From assembly GCF_022014495.1 (NCBI RefSeq), contig NZ_JAKLSQ010000024.1, positions 45,954 through 109,953 on the forward strand: a DNA stretch of 64,000 nt, read 5' to 3'. Of the stretch, positions 36,114 to 43,918 are shown piece by piece (within the stretch, counting starts at the first letter, position 1; the number at the start of each line of letters is the position of its first letter). The translations under genes and the position numbers were made by a program. The notes beneath the pieces were generated by a model. That model had not been told where the DNA came from and ran no database searches. It saw only the letters and a program-made list of their open reading frames with translations. The DNA comes from Sandaracinobacteroides sayramensis (GTDB lineage Bacteria; Pseudomonadota; Alphaproteobacteria; Sphingomonadales; Sphingomonadaceae).

Positions 36114-36899
36114 TCAGACGAATTTCCCCGGCACCGTCGGATGGCTGGAGGAAAGCCCGCCGTCCACCGCGATCGCCTGCCCGTTCACATAGCCCGCCGC
36201 GTCGGAGGCCAGGAACAGCGCCACCTCCGCCTGCTCCTCGGGCGTCGCGTAGCGCCGCAGCGGGTTCAACTGCCCCAGCCGATCTTCCTTCCCCCGCGCC
36301 CGCGCGCCGTCGAACAGCGGCGCCGTCATGCCCGTTTCCGTCAGGCCCGGGCAGATGCAGTTCACCCGCACCCCGGTGCCGCCCAACTGGTTCGCCGCCG
36401 TCTGCGTCAAGTTGATGACCCCGGCCTTCGAAGCCGAATAGGGCATGCCCCCCGCGCCCGAGCGGATGCCCGCGACGCTGGCGGTGGCAACGATCGCCCC
36501 CTTCCCCTGCGGCACCATCACCCGGCTGCCCTCGCGGATCGCCAGGAACACGCCGATCAGGTTCACGCGCAGCACCTTCTCCCACTCCTCCACCGACACG
36601 TCCGGCAGCAGGTTCAGCCCGCCGGAAATGCCAGCGTTGGCGAACAGCGCGTCCAGCCGGCCATACTCGCCGACGGCCTTGTCCACCGCCCCCTTTACGA
36701 ACGCCTCGTCGCCCGCATCGCCCACCAGCGCCTGCGCCGTGCCCCCGGCGGCCCGCGCCGCCTCCACCGTTTCCGCCACCGCGTCCGACCAGTCCGCCGC
36801 CAGCACCCGCGCCCCTTCGCGCGCGAACTGCAGCGAAGCCGCCCGCCCGATCCCGGAAGCCGCCCCCGTCACCAGCACCACCCTGCCCTCGAACCGCAT
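36114..36899 (-). CDS. SDR family NAD(P)-dependent oxidoreductase
   Basis: 261 residues. Rossmann motif TGAASGIG at 11-18, NAG at 88-90, catalytic Ser141, Tyr154 and Lys158 (MPYSASKAG), and the C-terminal NGQAIAVDGG block: a classical short-chain dehydrogenase/reductase. ATG 36899 is the natural start; the frame stays open upstream antisense to glpK, which is not coding. The substrate cannot be told. It is convergent with hemF, four bases apart, and divergent from glpK. Confidence 0.92.
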   Translation of the reverse strand: MRFEGRVVLVTGAASGIGRAASLQFAREGARVLAADWSDAVAETVEAARAAGGTAQALVGDAGDEAFVKGAVDKAVGEYGRLDALFANAGISGGLNLLPDVSVEEWEKVLRVNLIGVFLAIREGSRVMVPQGKGAIVATASVAGIRSGAGGMPYSASKAGVINLTQTAANQLGGTGVRVNCICPGLTETGMTAPLFDGARARGKEDRLGQLNPLRRYATPEEQAEVALFLASDAAGYVNGQAIAVDGGLSSSHPTVPGKFV

Positions 36900-36989
36900 A
36901 TGCCTCTCCTGCTGCGCGCGCCCATCCTGTTGCAAGCACCCAGCATCGGCCCTTGCCCAACCCCGCACAACCCGCCAGCAATGGGAGCC

Positions 36990-38468
36990 ATGGAACCGCT
37001 CATCCTCGCGCTCGACTCCGGCACCACCTCCACGCGGGCGCTCGCCTTCGACCTTTCGGGCCGCATCGCGGACGTGGCGCAATATCCGCTGACCCAGAGC
37101 TTCCCCGAGCCCGGCCGGGTGGAGCATGACGCGGCCGAAATCTGGGCGCTTACCCTGAAAGCGGCGCTGGAAGTGATGGGCCGGGTCGGCGAACGGGTGC
37201 AGGCGATCGGCCTCACCAACCAGCGCGAGACCATCTGCTTCTGGAGCCGCCGCAGCGGCGAGCCCCTCGCCCCCGCCATCGTCTGGCAGGACCGGCGCAC
37301 CGCCGACCTCTGCGCGCAACTGAAGCAGGCGGGCCACGAAGCGATGGTGCAGGCCACCACCGGCCTCCTCCTCGACCCCTATTTCTCCGCCACCAAGATC
37401 CGCTGGACGCTCGACAACCGCCCGGAGGTGCGCGCGGCGGCCGAAAGCGGCGACCTCGCCATCGGCACGGTCGAAAGCTGGCTGCTCTACAAGCTGACCG
37501 GCGCGCATCTGACCGACGCCAGCAACGCCTCTCGCACGCTGCTGATGGACCTCGAAACCCAAAGCTGGTCGCCGGAAATGCTCGACCTCTTCGGCGTCCC
37601 GCCAAAGGCCCTGCCGGCCATCGCCCCCACGGCCAGCCTCATCGCCGAAACCCATAGGCTGGGCCGCCCGCTGTTCGTCTCCGGCCTCGCCGGAGACCAG
37701 CAGGCCGCCACCATCGGCCAGGGCTGCGACAAGCCCGGGCTCGCCAAATGCACCTATGGCACCGGCATCTTCCTGCTGGCGAACGCCGGCAGCCGCCCGC
37801 CGCTCAGCCGCAACCGCCTGCTCTCCACCTTCCTCTCCTCCAGCCCGCGGGCCTATGCGCTGGAAGGCTCGATCTTCGTCGGCGGCGACGCCGTCAAATG
37901 GCTCCGCGACGGCCTCGGCATCCTCGACGCCGCCAGCGAGACCGAGGCGCTCGCCCGCTCCGTCCCCGATTCCGGCGGCGTGGTGTTCGTGCCCGCCTTC
38001 GCCGGCCTCGGCGCCCCGCACTGGCAGCCGCTGGCGCGCGGCACCCTGACCGGCCTCACCGGCGGCACCACCCGCGCCCACATCGTCCGCGCCACGCTGG
38101 AAGCGATGGGCCAGCAGACGGCCGACCTCATAGACACCTTCCGCGCCGACGGTGTCCTCCCCTCGGCGCTCCGCGTCGACGGCGGCATGGTCGCCAACGA
38201 ATGGCTCTGCCAGGACATAGCCGACGCCACGGGCCTCCCCGTCGAGCGCCCGCGCAGCATCGAGACCACCGGCCTCGGCGCCGCCATGCTGGCCGGCGTC
38301 GGCACCGGCCTCTTCGCCGATCTCGCCGAGGCTGCCGCCGCCATGGTCCACGCAGACCGCCGCTTCGAGCCCCGCGCCGACGAGCCGGCCCGCGCCGCCC
38401 GCCGCGCCGCCTGGCAGCGCGCCGTCGCGCAGACGCTGGCGGGGGTGGCAGCCACGCCCACCGCCTGA
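36990..38468 (+). CDS. glpK: Glycerol kinase
   Basis: 492 residues, FGGY family. LALDSGTTSTRALAFD is the N-terminal phosphate loop; IGLTNQRETICFWSR, IVWQDRRTADLC, LLLDPYFSATKIRW, GTVESWLLYKLTG and the C-terminal MGQQTADLIDTFRADG and RVDGGMVANEW are the GlpK blocks. It phosphorylates glycerol to sn-glycerol-3-phosphate. ATG 36990 is chosen; ATG 36981 is in frame three codons earlier. No glpF or glpD is nearby. Confidence 0.95.
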   Translation: MEPLILALDSGTTSTRALAFDLSGRIADVAQYPLTQSFPEPGRVEHDAAEIWALTLKAALEVMGRVGERVQAIGLTNQRETICFWSRRSGEPLAPAIVWQDRRTADLCAQLKQAGHEAMVQATTGLLLDPYFSATKIRWTLDNRPEVRAAAESGDLAIGTVESWLLYKLTGAHLTDASNASRTLLMDLETQSWSPEMLDLFGVPPKALPAIAPTASLIAETHRLGRPLFVSGLAGDQQAATIGQGCDKPGLAKCTYGTGIFLLANAGSRPPLSRNRLLSTFLSSSPRAYALEGSIFVGGDAVKWLRDGLGILDAASETEALARSVPDSGGVVFVPAFAGLGAPHWQPLARGTLTGLTGGTTRAHIVRATLEAMGQQTADLIDTFRADGVLPSALRVDGGMVANEWLCQDIADATGLPVERPRSIETTGLGAAMLAGVGTGLFADLAEAAAAMVHADRRFEPRADEPARAARRAAWQRAVAQTLAGVAATPTA

Positions 38469-38481
38469 TAAGGCCCCGCCC

Positions 38482-39219
38482 ATGCGCATGCGCGAACTGG
38501 AAAAAGCCTCCGGCGTCTCCCGCGAGACGATCCGTTTCTACATCCGCGAGGGCCTCCTGCCCGAGCCGGACCGCACGCACCGCAACAGCGCCACCTACAG
38601 CGACGACCATCTCGCCCGCCTCCTCACCATCCGCCGCCTGCGCGACGAGCGCTTCCTGCCGCTCTCCGTCATCCGCTCCCTGTTCGAAGGGCAGCAGACC
38701 GGCTGGCTGGAACCGCAGATGCTGCCCGAGATCGACCATCTGCTGCGCGCCCGCCTCGATTCCGAGGAAGCCTGGGTCAACGCCGAGGCGTTCATCGCCG
38801 ACATCGGCGGAGAGCCCGAGCATCTCGCCAACACCATCACCGCCGGAGTCATCGCCCCGGCGCCGGACGGCGGCATTTCCCCCCGCGACCAGCGCATCCT
38901 CAGGCTGCTGGTGGACGCGGCGAAGATCGGCTTCACCCGCGAGCGCGGCTATGCCGACAGCAGCATGGGCCGCCTCGCCGCCGTCATGCACAGCCTCGCC
39001 GAAATGGAGGTGAAGGACTTCTTCGCCAATGTCGCCCCGCATGTCGGCGAGCTGGAAGCCGCAGACATGGCCGAGCGCGGCATCGGCATCCTCAACCAGC
39101 TGATGGCGGAATTCTTCACCCGCGAGGTGCTCGCCCTGCTTTCCGAGCGCCGCCGCATCGCCAACGACAACCGCACCGCCCAATCGGCGAACCATCCCGC
39201 GAAATCCGCGCCCGAATGA
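38482..39219 (+). CDS. MerR family transcriptional regulator
   Basis: 245 residues. N-terminal winged helix-turn-helix: MRELEKASGVSRETIRFYIREGLLPEPDRT, then a MerR-type second wing (NSATYSDDHLARLLTIRRLR). The C-terminal 150 residues are helical, cysteine-free and without a known ligand domain, so this is not a metal sensor of the MerR/CueR kind. It starts 13 bases after glpK and overlaps the acyltransferase gene by four bases; lipid or glycerol metabolism is a possible target, by position only. Confidence 0.88.
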   Translation: MRMRELEKASGVSRETIRFYIREGLLPEPDRTHRNSATYSDDHLARLLTIRRLRDERFLPLSVIRSLFEGQQTGWLEPQMLPEIDHLLRARLDSEEAWVNAEAFIADIGGEPEHLANTITAGVIAPAPDGGISPRDQRILRLLVDAAKIGFTRERGYADSSMGRLAAVMHSLAEMEVKDFFANVAPHVGELEAADMAERGIGILNQLMAEFFTREVLALLSERRRIANDNRTAQSANHPAKSAPE

Positions 39220-39857
39220 GCCAGCCGCCCGGCACCCACATCCGCTACGACCTCTCCACCGCCCGCATCGCCCCGCCCCGGGGCTTCGGCGCCGAAGTCT
39301 ACCGCCGGGCCGCCCGGCTGTTCCTGGCGCTCTCCGGCTGGAAGACCGCCGGAGACTTCCCCGCCACGCCCAAAGCCGTTGTGCTGGCAGCGCCGCACAC
39401 CAGCAACTGGGACGGCGTCTGGATGATCGCCGCCGCCGGCAAATACCGCATCCGCCTGCACTGGATGGGAAAGGCCAGCCTCGCGCGCGGGCCGTTCGGC
39501 TGGCTGGCGAAGCTCTCCGGCCTGATCCCCATCGACCGCTCCGGCGGCAAGGATCTGGTGCGCGCCACCGCCGACGCGCTGGAACAGGCCGACAGGCTGC
39601 TGATCGCCATCGCGCCCGAAGGCACGCGCGGCTCGGTCGGCGAATGGAAATCCGGCTTCTACCACATCGCCCGGCTCGCGAGCGTCCCCATCGTCTTCGC
39701 GGTGATGGACTATGGCAGCCGCACCATCCGCATCTCCGGCGAACTCTGGCCCAGCGGCGACTACGAAGCCGACCTCGCCCTCATCCGCACCCACTACGCC
39801 GACGCGCGCGGCCGCCACGCCGGGCGCTTCTCGCTGGGCGGAGGAAAACAGACCTAA
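39216..39857 (+). CDS. Lysophospholipid acyltransferase family protein (PlsC-like)
   Basis: 213 residues. The catalytic HX4D motif is HTSNWD at 61-66 and the glycerol-phosphate-binding block APEGTRG follows near residue 130. The short single-domain form without a long transmembrane region belongs to the 1-acyl-glycerol-3-phosphate acyltransferase superfamily found widely in bacteria. It might acylate glycerolipid or a lipid A-like acceptor. Translationally coupled to the MerR gene. Confidence 0.88.
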   Translation: MSQPPGTHIRYDLSTARIAPPRGFGAEVYRRAARLFLALSGWKTAGDFPATPKAVVLAAPHTSNWDGVWMIAAAGKYRIRLHWMGKASLARGPFGWLAKLSGLIPIDRSGGKDLVRATADALEQADRLLIAIAPEGTRGSVGEWKSGFYHIARLASVPIVFAVMDYGSRTIRISGELWPSGDYEADLALIRTHYADARGRHAGRFSLGGGKQT

Positions 39858-40151
39858 CTCGATAACCCGCAGAAGCAATGAACATATTTTCCGTCACCCT
39901 GACGAATACACGCCCCGTCACCCCGGGCTTGACCCGGGGTCCAGCTTTCCCGCCGGCGGGGCAGGAAGCGGGATCCCGGGTCAAGCCCGGGGCCAGGAGT
40001 CCCCAACCCGGTTTTTCGCCTCCGGCGGCCAGGGCTTTGCCCTGGACCCAGCAGGGAAATGATTTCCCTGCACCCTCCTTTGCTGGCGTCGGCGGACTGA
40101 CGGCTCCGTTGTGCGCTTGATGGGTTCGATGCCTGCGGCGCCGGGTCGGGT
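39858..40151. repeat. Palindrome-rich intergenic repeat element
   Basis: 294 bases between convergent genes, built from several perfect inverted repeats. A long one pairs 39921-39939 (CCCCGGGCTTGACCCGGGG) with 39974-39992. Inside it CCCGCCGGCGGG (39949-39960) is self-complementary. CCAGGGC-TTT-GCCCTGG lies at 40029-40045. GCAGGGAAAT-G-ATTTCCCTGC lies at 40051-40071. No credible gene is present. Such mosaics are typical of dispersed REP-like repeats and can end transcription from both sides. Confidence 0.8.
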
Positions 40152-41444
40152 CTAGAACTCCCCGGCCACCGTCACCACCGGCCCCGATCCCGGAAGCGCG
40201 TTGCCCGCCGCGCGGAAGCGGTAATCCAGTTGCGCCCGAAACGGCCAGGGCTGCACCTGGAACTGCGCCGAGGGGCCGACATCCAGCCTGGAGACGGTCA
40301 GGCCATAATCCCGCTGCGCCGCCCCCCAGACACCCCCTCCAGCGTTCATCGCCACCTTGCCCAGGGCCATCACCGGCGTCGCCCCACGCAATTGCGCCCC
40401 GGCATAGAGCGCCGGCTCCTCGTCGAAGCCGATCACCCCTGCCTCGCCATAGCCCTCCAGCATCAGCCGCCGGCCGGCCAGCTTCGCTTCGCCGCTGGCC
40501 CCGCCCGACAGCCGCGCCGCCCAGGCGTCGCGCGAATAGGTGCCCAGAGCGAAGCGCCGCTCCACATCCACCGCCACCGGCACCCGCCGGAACGGCTGCA
40601 CCCGCACCCCCAGCGCCGCTTCCGCCGTCTCGCCGTCCAGCCCGCCGTTGGGGCCGGCGGCTGCGCTCAGCCGCCCCATCAGCGTCACCCGCGCCTCCCC
40701 CAGCGGATTGAGGGTATAGCCAACGGCCGCCCCCGCCTGCCCGCCGCCCAGCACCGGCGAGGCGGCCAGAGGGTCGCCCACGCCACCGCCGCGCGAAAGC
40801 ACATAGCCCGCGACCGACCAGCGGCGGGTCAACTGCCGCGCGTCCGCCGCCCATTGGGTGGCGCCGGGCGCATCCGGCGCGATCCGAACCGCCTCGGTCA
40901 GCAAGGCAACGGCCCGCCGCCGGTCGCCGGCCTGCAACGCCGCATAGCCGTTCGTCGCCACCACATGCGCCCGCGCCCCCGCCGCATCGACCGGCGGCGG
41001 CGCGGGCGCGGGCGGCACGGGAACCGCGCGCGCCTCCGGGGCGGGCGCGGCCAGCGGCAAGCTCCACATCGGCGCGGCCGGCGCCGCCTCGGAAACCACC
41101 CGCACCACCGTTTCGCGCGGCGGCCCGGCCTGTGCCACCACCGGCAACGGCCCGGCTTCGCGCGGCCCCCAGCCGGCGGCGATCAGCCGCTGGATCGTCT
41201 CGTCGGCCACCTGCGCGGCCACCCTTGCCGCCACATCCGCGGCCAGCAGCACCGTCTCGTCCTGCGGCGGCGAGGAAGCGAAAGCCGGCCGTTCCAGCCC
41301 GATCGCCTGCTCCAGCATTGCCCGCTCGCGCGCATTCTCCGCCACCAGATCCGGCCAGCGCCCGGCCAGCCACCCCAGCGCCAGCACCAGCAGGATCTGA
41401 TAGACGCGAAGCGCATAGCCCTGGCGCACAGGCGTCTCAGCCAT
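40152..41444 (-). CDS. NfrA-like protein: TPR-type repeat plus predicted outer-membrane barrel
   Basis: 430 residues from ATG 41444. One transmembrane helix near the N-terminus (about 15-30, ILLVLALGWLAG), then a Pro/Ala-rich linker (about 115-160). A TPR-like unit follows (NGYAALQAGDRRRAVALLTEAVRIAPDAP, about 170-198). The rest alternates short aromatic/hydrophobic strands and ends in VVTVAGEF, as outer-membrane barrels do. This matches a shortened version of the C-terminal part of NfrA (about 990 residues in E. coli), the phage N4 receptor now linked to exopolysaccharide secretion. It overlaps the upstream glycosyltransferase gene by eight bases. Confidence 0.65.
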   Translation of the reverse strand: MAETPVRQGYALRVYQILLVLALGWLAGRWPDLVAENARERAMLEQAIGLERPAFASSPPQDETVLLAADVAARVAAQVADETIQRLIAAGWGPREAGPLPVVAQAGPPRETVVRVVSEAAPAAPMWSLPLAAPAPEARAVPVPPAPAPPPVDAAGARAHVVATNGYAALQAGDRRRAVALLTEAVRIAPDAPGATQWAADARQLTRRWSVAGYVLSRGGGVGDPLAASPVLGGGQAGAAVGYTLNPLGEARVTLMGRLSAAAGPNGGLDGETAEAALGVRVQPFRRVPVAVDVERRFALGTYSRDAWAARLSGGASGEAKLAGRRLMLEGYGEAGVIGFDEEPALYAGAQLRGATPVMALGKVAMNAGGGVWGAAQRDYGLTVSRLDVGPSAQFQVQPWPFRAQLDYRFRAAGNALPGSGPVVTVAGEF

Positions 41445-42828
41445 TCGCGCCCTCCCCGGCCGGGAAGCGGTGCGGCGTCTTGTCCCAGCGCACGGCATGG
41501 CCGCTTTCCAGCGCCGCCCGGTAACGGTCGACCGCGCGCAAGGCCGAAAGGAAGTTGATTCCATTGCCCATCACCGCGCGCGGAACGGCGCGCAGCCCTT
41601 CGGCCCAGCCATAGTCCCGCGCCGTGAATCCCGCCCGCAGCAGCAGCCGCCACGCCAGCAGCCCGGCGTTCAGGATCAGGAAAGCGCACAACGCCACGCC
41701 CCCCTCCCCCATCAGCGGCGGCAGCGCCTGCCCCGTCTGTTCGGCCAGCATCGCCCGCATCGCCATCTGAGTCAGCATCAGCAGGCTAGCGCCATAGGCC
41801 AGCATAGTGACGGCGGCGGTGAACAGCCCCTTCCTGTCGCGCAGCAACATCCAGCGCTCGCGCCAGCCGCCGCTCCAGCCCAGCCGGTCCCATCCGGCGA
41901 GCGCGATCCCCGTCAGCCAGCGGGACTTCTGCCGGATCGCCCCTTCCAGATCGGCAGGGAAGAATTCCCGGGTGGCCACCAGCTCGCCCTTCACCCGCAC
42001 CCGCAGCATCCGCCCTTCCAGCCCCATGCGGTGCAGCTTGTGGCCGATCTCATAATCCTCGGTCAGGCTGCTCGCATCGAACGGCTCCCCCGCCGGCCCG
42101 GCGATGCGCTCCAGAACCGCGCGGTCGATCGCCGTCCCCACCCCGGCCGAGGGCACGGGCGCGCGCAAGGCCGCGCGCACCATCATGTCCTTGGCGTGGG
42201 ATTGCGCGAACTCGTCGATATAATGTCCGGAAATCCAGCGCGAATTCCGATCGACCAGCGGCAGCACCGGCAATTGCACCATCGCCAGCCCCGGAATCGC
42301 CCGGTCGTAGAGCCGGAGCGAAAGCGGGTGCACCAGATCCTCGGCGTCGTGCAGCACCACCGCCTTGAACCGCCGCCCGCTTTCCGCTTCTTCCGCCAGC
42401 ACCGCCCGCCAGAGCCGGTTCAGGCAGTCGGCCTTGGTGGTGGGGCCGGCATGGCCGGTCGAAACCGCCTGCACCCGGCGATCCCCCATCGCCCGGATCG
42501 CCGCCTCGGTCTCCGGGTCATTGGGGTAATAGCCCACGAACACATGGTAATCCGGATGCTCCAGCGTCGCCAGCAGCCGCGCCAACATGGCCCCGATCAC
42601 CGCCGACTCATCCCAGGCCGGGATCAGGATGGCGAATCGCCCGGCCTCGGCCGGCTCCGGCGGCAAAGGCGGTGCCTTGCGAAACGCCACCCGCCACAGC
42701 CAGACGAAATCCACCGCCAGATCGTCCAGGCTGGAAAGCGCGATTCCCGCCGCGCACAGCCACAAAAGCTCGCGCGTCAGCACGGCGAGCAGCGCCATGG
42801 CGGGAATCAGCGCCTCGGGCGTCAGCAC
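41437..42828 (-). CDS. NfrB-like processive family 2 glycosyltransferase
   Basis: 463 residues. An N-terminal helix with ALSSLDDLAVDFVWLWR matches NfrB. The GT2 core has ILIPAWDESAVIG, the DxD-like HDAED (160-164), TEDYE (256-260) and QKSRW (300-304), the D-DxD-TED-QxxRW set of processive synthases such as cellulose synthase. At least two more helices follow (about 325-345 and 370-395). E. coli NfrB (about 745 residues) carries an extra C-terminal MshEN domain that binds cyclic di-GMP; it is missing here. The start is GTG 42828; ATG 42798 is an alternative. Likely product: an inner-membrane polysaccharide synthase. Confidence 0.8.
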   Translation of the reverse strand: MLTPEALIPAMALLAVLTRELLWLCAAGIALSSLDDLAVDFVWLWRVAFRKAPPLPPEPAEAGRFAILIPAWDESAVIGAMLARLLATLEHPDYHVFVGYYPNDPETEAAIRAMGDRRVQAVSTGHAGPTTKADCLNRLWRAVLAEEAESGRRFKAVVLHDAEDLVHPLSLRLYDRAIPGLAMVQLPVLPLVDRNSRWISGHYIDEFAQSHAKDMMVRAALRAPVPSAGVGTAIDRAVLERIAGPAGEPFDASSLTEDYEIGHKLHRMGLEGRMLRVRVKGELVATREFFPADLEGAIRQKSRWLTGIALAGWDRLGWSGGWRERWMLLRDRKGLFTAAVTMLAYGASLLMLTQMAMRAMLAEQTGQALPPLMGEGGVALCAFLILNAGLLAWRLLLRAGFTARDYGWAEGLRAVPRAVMGNGINFLSALRAVDRYRAALESGHAVRWDKTPHRFPAGEGANG

Positions 42829-43009
42829 GCCGGCTCACGCCTCAGGGCGGGGAAAAACGCTGGAAACAGAAGCAGAAGGAACCTCGCGCCCCATCACGGG
42901 TTGTCGATCAAGTTCCGGCCCCGGCCCCATAGACCAGCGCCCTTCGCCGGACACAAGCGATTCGGCGGCGCCGCTTGGAGGAACCCGCCGCTTACGCTAG
43001 CAACGGGGT

Positions 43010-43918
43010 ATGCAGCCCCACCCCGAAACCGCCGTCCTCGATCTCATGCGCCAGGTCTGGGAACAGGGCAGCGAAAGGCGCGACCGCACCGGCGTCGGCA
43101 CAAAGGCCCTGTTCGGCGCCACGCTCCGCTTCGACCTGTCCGACGGCACCGTTCCTCTCCTCACCACCAAGCGCATCTTCTGGAAATCGGCGGTGAAGGA
43201 ACTGATCTGGTTCCTCAGCGGCGACACCAGCATCCGCCCGCTCGTCGCGCAAGGCGTGCACATCTGGACGGACTGGCCGCTGGACAAATACCGCCGCGAA
43301 ACCGGCGTTGAAATCGACCGCGACACCTTCGAAGCCCGCATCCTGGAAGACGACGCGTTCGCGGCGCAATGGGGCGACCTCGGCCCGGTCTATGGCAAGC
43401 AATGGCGCCGCTGGCTCGGCCCGGACGGCCGCACCCACGACCAGATCACCGCGCTCGTCGAAGGGCTGAAGGCGAACCCCGCCAGCCGCCGCCACATCTT
43501 CACCGGCTGGAACGTCGCCGAACTCGGCGAGATGGCCCTGCCCCCCTGCCACATGACCTACCAATATTTCGTCGAACCGCGCGCGCAAGGCCCCGACCGG
43601 CTTTCCGGCATCCTCTACCAGCGAAGCTGCGACATGGGGCTGGGCTTTCCCTTCAACATCTTCGAGGCCGCCCTGCTGCTGCGCATGCTGGCCGACCAGA
43701 CCGGGCTCGCCCCCGGCGAACTCATCTGGATGGGCGCCGACGTGCATCTCTATCTGAACCACGCGCATCTGGTGGAAACCCAGCTGTCGCGCGAGCCCCG
43801 GCCTTTCCCGCAACTGGCGCTGAAACCGGCGCCGAGCCTCTTCGGCTACACGCTGGAGCATGTCGAAATCTCGGGCTATGACCCGCACCCGCACATATCG
43901 GCGCCAGTCGCCGTCTGA
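43010..43918 (+). CDS. thyA: Thymidylate synthase
   Basis: 302 residues. Catalytic Cys180 in MALPPCHMTYQYF; RRDRTGVGTKALFGATLRFD and TKRIFWKSAVKELIWFLSGD at the N-terminus; YQRSCDMGLGFPFNIFEAALL and HLYLNHAHLVETQLSREP follow. It methylates dUMP with 5,10-methylene-THF. About 40 residues longer than E. coli ThyA, through the segment TGVEIDRDTFEARILEDDAF. ATG 43010 lies in a weak context; the GGAGG at 42976-42980 is 29 bases upstream. Confidence 0.97.
   Translation: MQPHPETAVLDLMRQVWEQGSERRDRTGVGTKALFGATLRFDLSDGTVPLLTTKRIFWKSAVKELIWFLSGDTSIRPLVAQGVHIWTDWPLDKYRRETGVEIDRDTFEARILEDDAFAAQWGDLGPVYGKQWRRWLGPDGRTHDQITALVEGLKANPASRRHIFTGWNVAELGEMALPPCHMTYQYFVEPRAQGPDRLSGILYQRSCDMGLGFPFNIFEAALLLRMLADQTGLAPGELIWMGADVHLYLNHAHLVETQLSREPRPFPQLALKPAPSLFGYTLEHVEISGYDPHPHISAPVAV

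Follow-up and report, generated by a model that had tools for sequence, protein, structure and literature searches.

A pair of overlapping genes was analysed in a 64,000-nucleotide stretch of Sandaracinobacteroides sayramensis DNA (contig NZ_JAKLSQ010000024.1, positions 45,954 to 109,953; below, the window, whose own numbering is used for its features). The upstream gene (41437..42828, reverse strand, GTG start) encodes a membrane family 2 glycosyltransferase (GT2) synthase of 463 residues that resembles NfrB of E. coli, and the downstream gene (40152..41444, reverse strand, ATG start) encodes a compact NfrA-like partner of 430 residues with Phe as its last residue. The partner ATG lies inside the glycosyltransferase gene, 8 nucleotides ahead of its end, and the two genes share positions 41437..41444 (reverse strand, 8 nucleotides). 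Both reading frames and their coordinates were confirmed. The pair is probably a two-gene system of the NfrB-NfrA lineage for the synthase-dependent secretion of a polysaccharide, and it lacks a cyclic di-GMP (c-di-GMP) switch on its enzyme.

In sphingomonads the glycosyltransferase and its partner form a stable unit of two genes. Of the 147 Sphingomonadales genomes sampled, 87 had the enzyme (76 of the 124 of good quality). A scan of named genomes, from which the best 80 loci were kept, returned chiefly Sphingomonas, Sphingobium, Sandarakinorhabdus and other sphingomonads; a complete partner followed the enzyme in 71 of these loci, at an offset of -4 in 50 and of -8 in 5 of the 71, the 4-nucleotide overlap being the commonest form. 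Because pair and overlap recur across the order, the arrangement is not due to chance. The nine loci without a complete standard partner comprised three cut by a contig end (directly at the glycosyltransferase in L059 and L062, inside the partner in L039), five with broken or odd-ended partners (interrupted or broken in L056, L084, L103 and L040, full-length with a different last residue in L075) and one, L078, in which no partner was found after the glycosyltransferase. In L056 (7188-11743) the final part of the partner stood about 3.2 kb further on, an insertion-like interruption. The glycosyltransferase gene was split over two frames in L173 (genome G132) and in L174/L007 (genome G133), which suggests decay or sequencing error.

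Kinship and predicted structure of the two proteins

Pairwise alignment gave 36% identity between the glycosyltransferase and E. coli NfrB across NfrB residues 23-482. The protein ends directly after the shared WDKTxHxFP motif, whereas E. coli NfrB (745 residues) extends for about 260 residues more, and Pfam found no MshEN domain in its 463 residues. It is a member of NF011307 (PRK14716.1-5; 496.3 bits against a cut-off of 431, residues 10-456), a model matched by all 43 members of alignment A4, and it scored below the cut-off of NF008411, the model for c-di-GMP-activated NfrB (327 bits against 1170, model positions 10-474 of 723). The DxD, TED and QxxRW motifs of GT2 enzymes were present as D161-A-E163-D164, T256-E257-D258 and Q300-x-x-R303-W304; D161, E163, D164, E257, D258, Q300, R303 and W304 were identical in 119 of 119 aligned rows, and T256 was kept in 116, with Val or Ala in the other three. 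In the available text of PMC8669469 the motifs conserved here are called signatures of processive glycosyltransferases. The AlphaFold2 model (mean predicted local distance difference test score, pLDDT, 93.9; predicted template modelling score, pTM, 0.91) consists of an N-terminal helix (4-48), the glycosyltransferase domain and helices 322-332, 334-365, 377-406 and 408-442; second and third by VIA-align were Chlorella virus hyaluronan synthase (Z 24.7; 378 residues, 3.9 Å) and E. coli BcsA (Z 24.6; 372 residues, 3.7 Å). A sequence search of solved structures gave no match for the single protein, and the family profile gave weak partial matches only. Kinship with NfrB through the core, the full set of GT2 motifs and the full-length match to hyaluronan and cellulose synthases together support a synthase.

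The partner, with 430 residues against 990 in E. coli NfrA, was modelled with AlphaFold2 from 72 sequences (mean pLDDT 81.3, pTM 0.63). Helices were placed at 10-48 (block pLDDT 75-86), 63-89 and 154-205, disorder at about 97-133 (pLDDT <50) and twelve strands at 209-429 (block pLDDT 85-97 except 221-230); together with VIA, the model predicts a C-terminal 12-strand outer-membrane barrel for residues 209-430 (40152..40820, reverse strand). Best in VIA were PcoB (Z 12.7; 182 residues, 3.7 Å) and FapF (Z 12.7; 199 residues, 4.0 Å), and KdgM was matched at Z 11.5 (166 residues, 4.0 Å); such matches to barrels of 12 or a similar number of strands speak for a barrel, not for a function. Foldseek returned general barrels (low query TM-scores, 0.17-0.31), the 16-strand exporters PgaA and BcsC stood outside the best 50 of the VIA list, which excludes nothing, and the sequence search of solved structures gave no match for the partner.

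Descent of the partner was examined with hhalign. The family profile matched NfrA C-termini (E. coli and five other genomes) with a probability of 96.8 and an expectation value (E) of 2.3e-10 over 218 columns. Against single targets, E was 7e-10 to 3e-15 for partners of sister families and of locus L140, 1.4e-6 and 7.9e-5 for two long NfrA proteins, 8e-4 to 9e-4 for two others, 0.0021 for E. coli NfrA and 0.08 for L130; the controls BcsC, PgaA, OmpG, NanC, PldA and four reversed sequences all gave E of at least 0.2. The profile match and the negative controls indicate that the partner descends from NfrA, despite an NfrA_C score below the Pfam cut-off.

An earlier account of this DNA, made from the letters alone (the sequence-only reading), had proposed the NfrB-NfrA kinship, the processive-type motifs, the absence of MshEN, a partner under half the size of NfrA and a probable barrel in it, and all five agree with the results above; its proposed refutation, a structure prediction without a barrel, was tried and did not refute it. 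Its tetratricopeptide repeat (TPR)-like unit stood in part: helices 154-205 are in the model, but TPR_19 reached 17.4 bits against a cut-off of 25, leaving no TPR above the Pfam cut-off, and with the threshold relaxed to E 0.1 it matched only 3 of the 72 aligned partners, so the unit is not conserved.

The partner N-terminus

Residues 10-34 of the partner form a hydrophobic helix (41343..41417, reverse strand) with Trp25 and Arg29, neither of which varied in any of the 72 aligned partners (context, for example, GRPLRFLxxxLxGWxxxRxxxLWP). The sequence-only reading had the partner keeping an anchor of NfrA; the signal sequence of E. coli NfrA is reported to be a classical one (PMC8669469), and the anchor-like N-terminus belongs to the window's own lineage. 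A Pro-rich linker follows (residues 30-207; 40824..41357, reverse strand), which in the window protein includes helices 154-205 with the sub-threshold TPR. From Arg29 to the first barrel strand the aligned partners had 97-195 residues (median 122, mean Pro content 16%). An extended residue measures about 3.3 Å and the periplasm is roughly 20-25 nm wide, so that even 97 residues, at some 32 nm when extended, would be enough to span it. Information per column was 2.2-2.7 bits over the first 20 consensus columns, 1.4-3.0 bits in the barrel and 1.1-1.7 bits in the linker.

The first transmembrane helix of the glycosyltransferase (residues 3-45; 42694..42822, reverse strand) carries Glu20 and conserved acidic residues at 35, 36 and 40. 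Of the 82 rows of the window's family, f1, 78 had Glu20 (the others had Asp, Gln, Ala and a gap, once each); most other families have hydrophobic or small residues at this position, and E. coli NfrB has Val. Glu, Trp and Arg occurred together in 69 of 72 glycosyltransferase-partner pairs, with Asp, Gln and a gap in place of Glu in one pair each. In the enzyme, 15 residues separate Glu20 from Asp35 at what is presumed to be the cytoplasmic end; in the partner, Arg29 follows the N-terminal positive residues by about 15-17. Judged from this spacing, we infer that the two could lie at a similar membrane depth.

The pair might then be a two-protein trans-envelope glycan machine, an idea that we put forward tentatively and regard as rather doubtful: the partner helix would stay uncleaved and tie the barrel to the synthase, Arg29 and Glu20 would pair in the membrane, the disordered Pro-rich linker would replace a TPR scaffold, and a structural check would take the place of c-di-GMP control, with a synthase that is active only while coupled to its exporter. 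A serious rival, which could well be correct, is a conventional Sec signal peptide that is cleaved off a plain, untethered outer-membrane porin. The N-terminal segment is indeed short and moderately hydrophobic (mean best 15-residue Kyte-Doolittle value 1.93, with Arg inside), some f4 partners have obvious signal peptides (L146, L148) and E. coli NfrA has its signal sequence (PMC8669469). Invariant Trp25 and Arg29 argue against cleavage, as does N-terminal conservation at the level of the barrel and above that of the linker, which is unusual for a discarded signal; moreover, by a rough script just 10 of the 72 partners had A-x-A close to this segment, and a linker of at least 97 residues was present in every aligned partner.

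The order of branches in the enzyme tree fits a stepwise origin of the proposed Glu20-Arg29 pairing, with Ala20 and no Trp-Arg anchor in L140, the anchor and Gln20 in L051, and then Glu20 in nearly all others. The pairing is weakened by acidic residues that occur without the partner Arg motif in L139 and L147, and by flat covariation. Mutual information with average-product correction, calculated between the partner N-terminus and the glycosyltransferase over the 72 pairs, gave no signal: 47% of the top 40 pairs fell in glycosyltransferase transmembrane helices (base 37%, barrel control 45%) and 12% against 11% in the first of them. Since Glu20 and Arg29 hardly vary, the flat result by itself neither supports nor excludes their pairing. 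The acidic state at this site changed 3 times on the tree, and since the window's group forms a single clade, its association with the anchor does not amount to many independent events. Glu20 was also considered as an exclusive marker and rejected: at the aligned position L139 has Asp, beside a partner that lacks the Arg motif, and L147 has Glu, in a gapped alignment.

Polymerisation, substrate and control

In the proposed secretion system the inner-membrane GT2 protein would polymerise a UDP-sugar and pass the chain through its own transmembrane helices, and the chain would leave through the partner's 12-strand barrel in the outer membrane. With the C-terminal MshEN lost, the enzyme would not be switched by c-di-GMP binding of its own, and control might instead be exerted via expression or contact with the exporter.

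Several observations weigh against this scheme. NfrA_C scored 20.9 bits in the window partner, below its cut-off of 25, and at E of 0.1 or less was found in 7 of 72 partner homologues. Twelve predicted strands make a barrel narrower than those of BcsC, PgaA and PelB, which have 16 strands in the literature, and that of NfrA, which is reported there with 16. The gene wecB lay within 6 kb of the glycosyltransferase in 1 of the 80 named loci, and the Epimerase_2 domain of its product serves other pathways too. In VIA-align, first place went to PcManGT (Z 28.3; 329 residues, 3.7 Å), which we take to be a non-processive archaeal mannosyltransferase; if so, the fold alone is no proof of polymerisation. 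That rank, together with the few transmembrane helices in the glycosyltransferase model, speaks for an enzyme that would attach a single sugar, or a few, to an acceptor (a lipid or an envelope component), with the barrel protein positioning or displaying the product. We consider this unlikely; among characterised proteins the nearest relative is NfrB, whose product is a secreted exopolysaccharide (PMC8669469).

For the polymerising synthase, comparison of gene content makes UDP-N-acetylmannosamine (UDP-ManNAc) or a relative the most likely substrate; UDP-ManNAc has been proposed for the E. coli system (PMC8669469, PMC8669472). Of the 87 genomes with the glycosyltransferase, 64 were searched for Epimerase_2 (WecB type), and every one of them had it, G088 as a short fragment only. 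In 7 of 9 loci examined outside Sphingomonadales (L126-L134) wecB adjoined the glycosyltransferase, as it did in two f4 loci within the order (L139 and L146); in L140 it lay about 4 kb away. The window genome has two Epimerase_2 genes, both unlinked to the pair, which might supply UDP-ManNAc; the one beside a likely aroA scored 192-251 bits against nfr-linked or nearby copies and the other 87-128. Presence and similarity to linked copies are consistent with UDP-ManNAc.

The C-terminal part of E. coli NfrB binds c-di-GMP, and 1,705 of 1,841 NfrB homologues were found with MshEN (both PMC8669469), so that forms free of MshEN were already counted in that work and, from its available text, apparently not taken further. 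A tree of 56 rows of glycosyltransferase cores, in which E. coli NfrB was the outgroup, points to a stepwise, graded loss of the C-terminal c-di-GMP module within the enzyme family. Long-tail proteins (149-272 residues) and f65 with reduced tails (79-81 residues) stood outside; then came f8, mostly with tails of 62-72 residues (two members are tail-less), f4 without, f7 with both states, and f3, f6 and f1 without, the window's f1 being one clade (100/95). A tail of at least 60 residues was present in 19 of the 56 rows, and the fewest changes of tail state were 4. The short tails resemble the 53-residue c-di-GMP-binding module described in PMC5013675 in having two LG..L repeats; the relaxed pattern of that paper was found in both halves in L141 only, the other short tails being judged by eye, and in L156 the second repeat looks broken by the same judgement. 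Pfam MshEN (PF05157) was detected in 3 of 6 long or intermediate glycosyltransferases scanned (L126, L130, L131) and gave no match in the short tails scanned, though the 53-residue module is there.

The partner becomes smaller in parallel with module loss, from 672-1119 residues outside the order (five alphaproteobacterial loci) to 635-724 in f7, 441-485 in f8, 428-478 in f6, mostly 333-347 in f4 and 315-444 in f1. L140 (genome G053), the deepest f1 branch, has a tail-less glycosyltransferase, a 537-residue partner of another type and wecB about 4 kb upstream; it is possibly a living intermediate.

Control by c-di-GMP through a separate protein (a short 53-residue MshEN module, PilZ or a dedicated diguanylate cyclase) is quite improbable, for although the genome has four GGDEF matches, sister families carry the short module as a tail of the same enzyme and the Pfam MshEN model is blind to such tails, PF05157 and PilZ had no match in the genome, no tandem c-di-GMP motif occurred in the 521 open segments of the window, and no GGDEF match lay on the contig of the pair. 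The sequence-only reading had proposed a search for a separate MshEN or PilZ gene; Pfam returned 0 matches genome-wide, and because PF05157 misses short modules, a separate one may escape it.

Neighbourhood and comparison with known systems

The window (36141-43918) and the nearest named relative, L036 (4083-12409, a Sandarakinorhabdus metagenome-assembled genome), share neighbouring genes, which were named by eye as thymidylate synthase, a MerR-type regulator, a glycerol-kinase-like gene and a short-chain dehydrogenase. Just 3' of the partner gene, at 39920-40000, a GC-rich inverted repeat pair was seen by eye (CCCCGGGCTTGACCCGGGG and its near-exact reverse complement). A TauE/SafE-type permease-like gene (by eye) lies downstream of the pair in L055 (8384-10062), L072 (8649-9569) and L107 (8505-9419), followed in L055 by a further small gene; the window pair is not adjoined by such a gene. 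Two alphaproteobacterial loci of different families have a gene for a DUF4434 protein (Pfam) after nfrA (L129, 10588-11649; L130, 1105-2001). Clustering of neighbour genes was swamped by antisense open reading frames and yielded only a frequent downstream gene.

A phage-receptor role, also raised by the sequence-only reading, found no support. Phage N4 gp65 binds NfrA according to published abstracts; with the 160 kDa protein of the N4 record as query, taken as gp65 from its position in the record, flanked by gp64 and the 60 kDa protein, 118 phage records matched and none was named for a sphingomonad phage, though the collection may lack such phages. In the available text of the Sphingomonas phage paper PMC10385605, N4-like phages are mentioned in the reference list only.

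No published function was found for the sphingomonad pair in the open-licence literature, outside which most subscription journals lie. The description of the system as minimal is right in size, but the family is common and already catalogued rather than an isolated find: the enzyme has a curated, uncharacterised NCBI family, and what is new is that the c-di-GMP module was lost by degrees and that the partner is built of anchor-like segment, linker and barrel. Of the 147 genomes sampled in the order, 87 have this synthase-dependent glycan pathway, which seems to be without a published function. It also offers a natural graded series of loss of c-di-GMP control in one family, in which to ask how a synthase is restrained without the domain and, if the tether is true, a simple case of one polypeptide joining an inner-membrane synthase to an outer-membrane pore.

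With the E. coli NfrB-NfrA-YbcH system, the N4 glycan receptor system, the window pair shares the overlapping nfrB-nfrA gene order, the NfrB core at the identity given above and a partner barrel homologous to that of NfrA. It differs in having no MshEN, a 430-residue partner in place of 990, no TPR above cut-off and an unlinked wecB, and in an anchor-like N-terminus where NfrA has a classical signal sequence (PMC8669469). The next likely gene (39216-39857) is on the opposite strand, and by position only, no homology search having been made, no ybcH-like third gene seems to follow. NF011307, named 'glycosyl transferase family protein' in NCBIfam, is a catalogue name for the enzyme and leaves partner, pairing and function outside the model. 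PelB of Pseudomonas, which exports Pel, likewise combines an outer-membrane barrel with a hydrophobic N-terminus lacking a cleavage site and is proposed in PMC12141448 to bridge the two membranes; it does so with a TPR scaffold of more than 20 nm and a 16-strand barrel, whereas the window partner has a Pro-rich linker (97-195 residues in its family) and 12 predicted strands. The sphingomonad families f7 and f8 with a short MshEN-like tail (for example L141 and L150) have the same gene pair and overlap and partners found by the profile of the window's family, but their glycosyltransferase keeps a tail of 62-72 residues with two LG..L repeats beside partners of 441-635 residues, where the window enzyme is tail-less.

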